The notes under the pieces are model-generated. The model worked only from the letters and a program-made list of their open reading frames with translations. It did not search any database and had not been told where the DNA came from. The position numbers and the translations under genes are program-made. Below are positions 59,764 to 62,433 of a DNA stretch of 64,000 bases, in pieces. The stretch is from Thermoproteota archaeon (GTDB lineage: Archaea; Thermoproteota; Nitrososphaeria; Nitrososphaerales; Nitrosopumilaceae), in contig QQVN01000005.1 in assembly GCA_003352285.1 (NCBI GenBank), positions 534,380-598,379 of the forward strand, in the 5' to 3' direction. How positions within the stretch are numbered: position 1 is the stretch's first letter; each line of letters begins with the position of its first letter.

Positions 59764-62433
59764 TTATTTCTCAATTATAGTAATTTTTTCAATTTTTGCC
59801 GAGTCAATATTTATTGGATGATCAAATTCATTTGTTTCTAAAGAACCAATTTGATCAACTACTTCTTGTCCAGAAATTACTTCACCAAATATAGTATACT
59901 GCCCGTCTAACCACGGAGAATCTCCTAACATTATAAAGAATTGAGAGCCTGCACTGTTAACATCAGCTCCTCTAGCCATAGAAACAATGTATTTTTTGTG
60001 CTGTAAGTCACTAAATTCTGGAGAAATTGAATAACCGGGTCCGCCAGTTCCCCACGTATCAGGAGAACCTGAAATAGTATTTGGATCGCCCCCTTGAATT
60101 ACAAAGCTAGGTATGATTCTATGGAAAATTGTTCCATCATAAAATCCAGATTTTGCTAATTGAACAAAATTATCCACTGTTTTTGGCGCAATGTCATCTT
60201 TGAATTCAATAGTAATCTCACCTAATGTTGTTTGTAAAACTGCTAATTCTGTTTTGGATTGTATAGTTGGAATATCGTCAATTAAAGTCGGATTATAGTT
60301 TTTATTAATTTCATAAATTAAAACACCGCTAATAGGACCTGGTGATTCACGATTTAGAGAAGGTGATTGATACACAAGTCTTAAAGGTCCATCACTATCA
60401 GAAGGATATTTCACATCTTTAATGTAAATTGGAGTATATCCAGGCGAATAAGATTCAATCTGCAAGTTATTTGCAAAGTTAACATATGCAACTGGTGTAA
60501 ATGGGAACATTTTTCCTAAGATGGTATCATTCCAGAAAAGATCAGTTCCACTCATACCATCAGCAAATAGGTATTTTGATAATGGTTCGCCAGCAATTCG
60601 GATGAACCATTGTTTTTTGCTCTCATCTGCGCCCCCAGTGAGAAGATATATCTCGGTAGGTTCAGATTGAATCTTTTGGGCTGCAACATAGACTAGAACA
60701 TAATCTGCATCTAATTCTTGTAATAGATTCCAAGCTTCATCTGGTGAACTTAGAAACATTTGGGCAATTTTTTTAATTTGCCAATCAATTAACGTAGCAT
60801 TATCTGCAAGCGATATTCTTTCCCCAAGTGTTGTGATCCAATAACCATAATCCCACCAAGATGCTACAACTGCATCTTGAGGAGTATTATTTTTTATCCA
60901 ATCCATTGCATGTGGCCAATCAGTAGTAGCGATGTTAAATTGGGTTCCGCCATTAAGTAATGTAGGTGGAGCTTTTACTGCATTAATCCATGTTGCATTT
61001 ACTGGGAGGATTACAGGTGAAATTAAAAATCCAATAATGATTATTGTAAAACTTATTTTTGTTATACTTTTAGAAGTGGAGGCAAACTTTTTCCCGTCTT
61101 TTTTAAATGAAAAAATTTCCGAAGATAATATAGCTAATGCTATTGAGGCAAGAATTAAAATTCCTACAGATGCAAAAATTTCCAGCCTAATGAATGCTGA
61201 ACTGATATAGGCACCCATCATACCTATTATCAAAGAAAATACAATCATATCTTTTTGAAGAAGAATTGAGGAATATTTCTGATTTTTTCTTAAAATTAAC
61301 CAGATCCCTAATCCAGCAAAAATCATAAGTATAGATTGGAAGTAAAAAGATTGATCCAATGTAGTAGTTGCATGCTCTGCTACTGAATCAATTAGTGGGT
61401 CTGTAGTTGTTAGAAAAGGATTGACTGCATTAAGATATCTATAAGTTGGAATTGTCACAATTCTTTCAGAATAATGAAGTGTGGAATTATAGATAATGAA
61501 GAAGCTAGCTAAAAGGATACAACCAACTAGAAATATTACAGCATTTCTTTTTCCATGATTTTTAGAAATTTTCATTATGAAAATTGATATTATCATAAAG
61601 ATTGTCGGTCCAATAAACACTAAACCACCTAAACCAGTTACAAAACTAGGACCAGGTCGAGGTAGAGAAGCTGCAATAATCAGCGAGGTTATTACAAAAA
61701 ATGGAATAGACCAAAGAAGAAAATTATAATCTTTTCTCAAAAAAGGTAAAGTCAAAAAATAAAGTCCCAAAGGAAGAATAAAGAATTGAATTCCTCCCCA
61801 AGAGGATAGTCCAAATACTAAGAAAATTCCTGCAGCAATAATTTTTATGGCTGTTATTTTTTGGTTTTTAGATTTTATTGCACTCAAAAAAAAGTATATC
61901 CCTAATAATCCATAAAAAAGTCCTAAAGGTTCTGATTTGAACCATCCAATAGTTCCTCTAATAATTATTGGTACGGATATAGAAAATATTAACGATGCAA
62001 AGAGGCCTGCTGTTGTTCCGCCAATAACACGAACAAGTCCAAAAACTACAATTGCTGTAAATGCGCCAAAGACTACTGGAAAGACTATTGTAAAATCATA
62101 AAGTGAATGTCCAGCATTAAAAATTGGATAAAGAGATGCTGCTGTAAGATGTAACATTACTTGAGATGTTTCTGATACATTTCTTCCATGTGGATGCCAA
62201 CTCATATCATCATGCCAATCAAAGTAGGCAGCGTATCCATTTTCTAAGATAAATTCTGTAGCACGAAAATTGAAGAATGGATCAAACTCATTTAGTTCAA
62301 AGCCATAATCAGCTGCTTGAGAACGAATAAGAATTGAAATTGTAAATGAAAGAGAGAGTATCCCTATGATTAATAGATGTTGTAAACGAAAATCAAATTT
62401 TCCAACTGAGAATAGTTTAGCGTTTGATAGCAA
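59764..62433 (-). CDS. aglB: AglB/STT3 oligosaccharyltransferase fused to a cyclophilin peptidyl-prolyl isomerase domain
   Basis: 889 residues. Residues 1-480 are a multi-span GT-C membrane domain with the acidic first loop NEFDPFFNFRATE (D51), the second acidic pair FDWHDDMSWHPHGRN and the SVAEHATTT loop (350-358). The catalytic WWDYG motif is at 526-530 in the globular part that follows. Residues 730-889 are a cyclophilin domain: FHRIIPSFVIQGGDP (catalytic Arg 772, Gln 780), SAGSQFFI and WLDGQYTIFG (W841), all key residues kept. The frame is continuous; the join is around ELAVLQTTLGEITIEF. AglB transfers lipid-linked glycan to Asn on proteins outside the membrane; the fused isomerase would sit on the same side. 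The start is TTG. Confidence 0.93.
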   Translation of the reverse strand: MLSNAKLFSVGKFDFRLQHLLIIGILSLSFTISILIRSQAADYGFELNEFDPFFNFRATEFILENGYAAYFDWHDDMSWHPHGRNVSETSQVMLHLTAASLYPIFNAGHSLYDFTIVFPVVFGAFTAIVVFGLVRVIGGTTAGLFASLIFSISVPIIIRGTIGWFKSEPLGLFYGLLGIYFFLSAIKSKNQKITAIKIIAAGIFLVFGLSSWGGIQFFILPLGLYFLTLPFLRKDYNFLLWSIPFFVITSLIIAASLPRPGPSFVTGLGGLVFIGPTIFMIISIFIMKISKNHGKRNAVIFLVGCILLASFFIIYNSTLHYSERIVTIPTYRYLNAVNPFLTTTDPLIDSVAEHATTTLDQSFYFQSILMIFAGLGIWLILRKNQKYSSILLQKDMIVFSLIIGMMGAYISSAFIRLEIFASVGILILASIALAILSSEIFSFKKDGKKFASTSKSITKISFTIIIIGFLISPVILPVNATWINAVKAPPTLLNGGTQFNIATTDWPHAMDWIKNNTPQDAVVASWWDYGYWITTLGERISLADNATLIDWQIKKIAQMFLSSPDEAWNLLQELDADYVLVYVAAQKIQSEPTEIYLLTGGADESKKQWFIRIAGEPLSKYLFADGMSGTDLFWNDTILGKMFPFTPVAYVNFANNLQIESYSPGYTPIYIKDVKYPSDSDGPLRLVYQSPSLNRESPGPISGVLIYEINKNYNPTLIDDIPTIQSKTELAVLQTTLGEITIEFKDDIAPKTVDNFVQLAKSGFYDGTIFHRIIPSFVIQGGDPNTISGSPDTWGTGGPGYSISPEFSDLQHKKYIVSMARGADVNSAGSQFFIMLGDSPWLDGQYTIFGEVISGQEVVDQIGSLETNEFDHPINIDSAKIEKITIIEK

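Follow-up and report, generated by a model that had tools for sequence, protein, structure and literature searches.

A cyclophilin domain fused to the C-terminus of the oligosaccharyltransferase AglB is ancient and conserved in ammonia-oxidizing archaea and suggests that exported proteins are glycosylated and folded in one place on the outer side of the membrane

AglB oligosaccharyltransferases catalyze glycan transfer on the outer face of the membrane and have an outward C-terminus, and cyclophilins isomerize X-Pro bonds; in eukaryotes, many separate proteins take part, which makes a link between the two reactions difficult to test. Two described systems come closest to the one reported here. 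At the human OST-A secretory translocon, FKBP11 places a prolyl isomerase-fold domain beside the oligosaccharyltransferase on its exit side; it is a separate, ribosome-bound protein of the FKBP fold, its catalytic site lies buried under CCDC134, and it has been argued not to isomerize nascent chains (PMC12804085). In the ammonia-oxidizing archaeon Nitrosopumilus maritimus, the parvulin-fold isomerase NmPin is held on the outer membrane surface by a lysine-rich patch and is proposed to serve S-layer folding (PMC4922055). Multi-domain archaeal cyclophilins have also been mentioned, with the isomerase domain at the N-terminus and no AglB fusion named among them (PMC8530231). As for N-glycosylation itself, Nitrososphaera viennensis expresses its one aglB and bears N-glycans on its S-layer protein and two multicopper oxidases; N-glycoproteins were detected in this species but none in Nitrosopumilus piranensis, in the only N-glycoproteome comparison that we found (PMC12153357).

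The DNA analyzed here (the window) is a stretch of 64,000 nucleotides from a Nitrosopumilaceae genome. Its aglB, the sole STT3 gene and thus the only oligosaccharyltransferase gene of that genome, continues in one uninterrupted frame into a cyclophilin, as an earlier note on this DNA had claimed, and the junction lies where that note put it, near 60246:

59764..62433, minus strand: fusion of aglB with a cyclophilin gene, 889 codons plus stop, starting at TTG
60286..62433, minus strand: AglB/STT3 core, residues 1 to 716
61009..62385, minus strand: membrane part, residues 17 to 475, with 13 long hydrophobic helices in the predicted model (our count)
60844..60858, minus strand: WWDYG sequon-binding motif, residues 526 to 530, invariant in the alignment
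60250..60285, minus strand: linker, residues 717 to 728, disordered in the model
59767..60249, minus strand: cyclophilin-type peptidyl-prolyl isomerase domain, residues 729 to 889
60118..60120, minus strand: Arg772, which corresponds to the catalytic Arg55 of human cyclophilin A

Both parts belong to known families; as far as could be checked, the combination is new, since we found no description of it in the open-access papers searched. Below, genomes are sorted into numbered families (f) and genera (g), and genus names attached to g-numbers were assigned by inference.

The first part is a recognizable member of the archaeal AglB/eukaryotic STT3 family (GT66, PF02516). The Pfam STT3 profile matches residues 47 to 288 (E = 3.3e-21; 76.7 bits against a cut-off of 24.5), phmmer aligns 565 residues (20 to 584, WWDYG included, as the earlier note had located it) with human STT3A (E = 1.4e-52), and Foldseek matches the first part of the predicted model to STT3A, STT3B, yeast STT3, and Archaeoglobus fulgidus AglB. 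It shares with the family the 13 helices, the first acidic motif (EFDP, here NEFDPFFN), the SVSE-type motif (SVAE, here SVAEH), and WWDYG, which is found in the AglBs of every family aligned. The window's AglB differs from these proteins in its tethered C-terminal cyclophilin, and from human STT3A in the second acidic DxD/DxE motif (WFKSEP, residues 164 to 169, positions 61944-61927), where the Glu is kept but Lys replaces STT3A's Asp. This Lys occurs in all sampled families f1 to f12 and in some members of f15 to f17; Asp occurs in f13, f14, f18, and one f16 genome. A 2.53-Mb single-contig genome (L088), probably of N. viennensis, carries the fusion; since that species has a single, expressed aglB and N-glycans, the AglB half probably works, glycan transfer included, in the fused state. 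In the N-glycoproteome comparison (PMC12153357), N. viennensis thus stands for a fused genus and N. piranensis for a genus that lacks the tail, but this is one pair and shows no cause.

The second part is a complete cyclophilin, as the earlier note had proposed. Pfam Pro_isomerase (PF00160) covers residues 733 to 878 (E = 3.5e-47; profile positions 4 to 156 of 159), phmmer aligns residues 732 to 875 with the cyclophilin Ppi1, and Foldseek returns Ppi1/PPIL1-type cyclophilins (3jb9_d: rmsd 1.5 Å, target TM 0.92, 46% identity). The domain is not of the FKBP fold, and its likeness to FKBP11 is one of placement only. We compared 71 complete fused copies from Nitrosopumilaceae, Nitrososphaeraceae, and Nitrosomirales-type ammonia oxidizers. 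Arg772 is present in 71 of 71, Phe777 and Gln780 in 70 each, and Phe833 in 69 (equivalents of Arg55, Phe60, Gln63, and Phe113); like Arg55, the equivalents of Ala101, Gln111, and Leu122 and a Tyr at position 846 occur in every copy. Thus the catalytic Arg, Gln, and Phe are kept as the earlier note had read them, but the Trp that it listed with them is not conserved: position 841, Trp in the window, is Trp in 27/71 copies and Phe in 34/71. In cyclophilins, Trp121 is a cyclosporin contact and is often Phe in bacteria. Relative to PPIL1/Ppi1-like isomerases (PF00160), then, the tail has the complete domain and the catalytic Arg, Phe, and Gln, and differs in its variable Trp position and in being covalently joined to an oligosaccharyltransferase. 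Both halves of the fusion are under purifying selection (NG86 dN/dS over nine pairs: 0.02 to 0.20 for the cyclophilin part, 0.03 to 0.11 for the AglB core). We infer that the tail has isomerase activity, that this activity is coupled to glycosylation, and that glycoproteins benefit from it.

Thirteen helices in the model, together with the usual N-in topology, place the tail outside the membrane, on the side that the earlier note had predicted. The predicted model of the whole fusion (mean pLDDT 76, pTM 0.64) gives a well-predicted cyclophilin (block means mostly >85) and a poorly predicted linker (<50 over residues 717 to 726), and the relative placement of AglB and cyclophilin in it carries no confidence. 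Among relatives, linker length runs from about 9 to 105 residues, with Ser, Thr, Asn, and Pro often abundant. A linker this variable and disordered favours a free tether over an isomerase pocket docked at the acceptor site, an arrangement that the earlier note had raised. Long open frames whose tblastn match ends near residue 718 could be taken to carry other C-terminal domains, but by blastp nearly all of them have the cyclophilin, set behind a longer linker.

The fusion is widely conserved within Nitrososphaerota and occurs in several families. In the window's family (f1), it is present in Nitrosotalea (g9), Nitrosotenuis (g18), g1 (the window's genus), g6, g8, g10, g13, g17, g21, and g22, and in one of the two g2 genomes; in f3, it is present in Nitrososphaera-like g28, Nitrosocosmicus (g24), and others; elsewhere, it occurs in f5, one f2 genome, and SAT137 (L244), which has been placed in Nitrosomirales (PMC10811736). 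Unfused genera are Nitrosopumilus (g12), Nitrosarchaeum (g4), Nitrosopelagicus (g20), Cenarchaeum (g11), g3, g7, g14, g15, g16, and g19. Their AglBs mostly stop within a few residues of position 716, most of them 1 to 5 residues past it. Low-complexity or proline-rich AglB tails without a cyclophilin are seen in the Cenarchaeum-like L040, L042, and L043, and in L099, which lies near a contig end; these are perhaps linkers left after domain loss. No cyclophilin remnants were seen 3′ of unfused aglB in the loci that we read. AglB is also unfused in every further family sampled, both of the order (f4, f6 to f12) and of the class (f13 to f18), and in 121 genomes sampled over the phylum, the longest cyclophilin-bearing frame from outside the order has 599 amino acids. 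The distribution search covered this phylum. Five f2 genomes of g23, probably Nitrosocaldus (G237, G240, G241, G245, and G264; >90% complete), gave no AglB match and no cyclophilin; N. cavascurensis has putative S-layer subunits (PMC5797428).

In a tree of the AglB core (121 rows, cyclophilin excluded), fused copies and unfused ammonia oxidizers form one clade (SH-aLRT 100, branch 0.48). The tree requires six changes of state, for which the simplest account is a single fusion in the ammonia-oxidizer stem followed by about five losses, mainly within Nitrosopumilaceae, that include Nitrosopumilus, Nitrosarchaeum, Nitrosopelagicus, and Cenarchaeum. The earlier note had held that close relatives with aglB and cyclophilin as two separate genes would count against the fusion; such relatives exist only as the tail-less AglBs of Nitrosopumilus-like genera, and the tree reads them as losses from a fused ancestor. 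Several independent fusions were considered as well. A first cyclophilin tree disfavoured a single fused clade (p-AU 0.026), but the window and the f2/f5 copies were missing from it, and a Nitrosocosmicus-specific copy was not counted as part of the fused group; in the corrected tree, which includes that nested copy, a single fused clade is not rejected (p-AU 0.218), and AglB gives one clade. Since the 161-column cyclophilin domain is too short to settle the matter, it is mainly the AglB tree that supports a single origin. Relatives that are not ammonia oxidizers have an unfused AglB and free cyclophilins whose N-terminus bears a hydrophobic segment (L138, L252, L163, and L164); these would be a plausible source of the tail. 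The nested copy is the C-terminal cyclophilin of a protein of about 450 to 485 amino acids (L150, L262, and L269 in g24), which sits among the AglB-tail cyclophilins of that genus; judging by this position, that protein seems to have acquired a copy of the Nitrosocosmicus AglB tail. The fusion and its repeated loss in close relatives provide matched natural comparisons, and bear on cell-surface assembly in ammonia-oxidizing archaea.

We consider it somewhat better than an even bet that the ancestral fusion couples glycosylation and prolyl isomerization by proximity, for exported clients generally. In such a mechanism, the ancestor of ammonia oxidizers would have extended the C-terminus of its one oligosaccharyltransferase with an exported cyclophilin; the AglB half would move a lipid-linked glycan onto Asn-X-Ser/Thr of proteins reaching the outer membrane face, and the tethered extracellular cyclophilin would act on these chains close to AglB, isomerizing their X-Pro bonds both ahead of glycan transfer and following it, with no fixed geometry between pocket and active site. 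Clients would be exported proteins in general. The S-layer protein, which the earlier note had named as a client, does not define them: typical S-layer proteins are reportedly missing from Nitrosocosmicus franklandus (PMC6776761), and Nitrosocosmicus (g24) is fused, so on that report the S-layer protein cannot be the sole client, and general exported clients fit better. NmPin resembles the tail in that it too gives an ammonia oxidizer an isomerase at its outer membrane surface, and differs in that its genus, Nitrosopumilus, lacks the AglB tail. The FKBP11 precedent, with its buried site, and the roughly five losses of the tail count against the proximity-coupled mechanism, and we found no assay of either half in the papers searched. 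In a stronger version, which we hold only tentatively and regard as unlikely, isomerization is coupled to sequon use and influences which sites are glycosylated before folding; the protein would then be a covalent glycosylation-plus-folding enzyme, matching in one polypeptide the eukaryotic OST translocon with its isomerase, ancestral to most ammonia oxidizers and dropped mainly in marine lineages.

The first alternative is that AglB is a mere membrane anchor and the tail a general exported cyclophilin, uncoupled from glycan transfer; we think this doubtful, though it is the strongest rival, and it turns on the other secreted cyclophilins of these genomes. A separate long secreted-type cyclophilin frame (362 to 988 amino acids) is present in 36/36 unfused genomes examined and in 14/36 fused genomes of the same family, and is absent from all sampled Nitrosotalea. 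We found none in any f3, f2, or f5 genome; Nitrosocosmicus has the different 450- to 485-amino-acid protein described above. The AglB tail is the only cyclophilin with export evidence in most Nitrososphaeraceae, Nitrosotalea (g9), and the f2/f5 genomes. Because every unfused genome has a secreted cyclophilin of its own, the tail appears to be lost only where another exported one exists, and what these cells require may be an exported cyclophilin of any kind rather than an AglB-borne one; an anchor role fits this pattern too, as it fits the unconstrained linker length and the free cyclophilins with a hydrophobic segment in non-ammonia-oxidizing relatives. Yet the fusion was retained in several families although simpler anchors existed, genera with no independent secreted cyclophilin never split AglB from cyclophilin, and the association between the fusion and a secreted cyclophilin rests on 1 to 3 independent pairs, too few to give a phylogenetic test power. 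The window's genome has two further cyclophilins, a short one (L001) and a 510-amino-acid protein (L002) with a signal peptide, a cyclophilin, and PsbP-like and CFI-box-CTERM parts. In g16, two secreted proteins of 923 to 988 amino acids (L265:3150-6113 and L266) combine cyclophilin, PQQ-type glucose/sorbosone dehydrogenase, and DsbA-like thioredoxin domains.

Less probable still is a noncatalytic cyclophilin that docks or holds chains or partners for AglB. FKBP11 is a precedent, since near OST-A and with a buried site it is argued to help recruit CCDC134 (PMC12804085), but in the AglB tail the catalytic residues are near-invariant over 71 copies and under purifying selection. The variable tether would also permit the isomerase to work on AglB, perhaps on external-loop prolines, as an intramolecular folding aid or switch; we judge this very improbable, because the core motifs are the same in the unfused AglBs of close relatives, so the core needs no tail.

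An assembly join or frameshift, for which nothing at the window locus speaks and to which only two incomplete relatives frameshifted inside the cyclophilin (L041 and L052) lend any colour, has a negligible chance of explaining the fusion and is refuted by the same architecture in the congener G022 (an 886-amino-acid frame, in line with the earlier note's expectation of same-length proteins in related genomes) and by full-length single-frame fusions in many f1 genera and beyond f1, in dozens of independent assemblies, single-contig genomes among them. The fusion is real.

Two observations concern the aglB genes themselves. Against its counterpart in congener G022 (L005), the window's gene is mostly 90 to 98% identical in its flanks, at its 5′ end, and over the 3′ end that encodes WWDYG and the cyclophilin, and the central membrane-coding part (about 62130-60990) is only 53 to 75% identical in nucleotides and 70% in protein; the two genes form a mosaic, perhaps with recombination as its source. 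Two assemblies each contain two different AglB genes (L066 and L067 in G124; L047 and L048 in G170), the result of either duplication or contamination.
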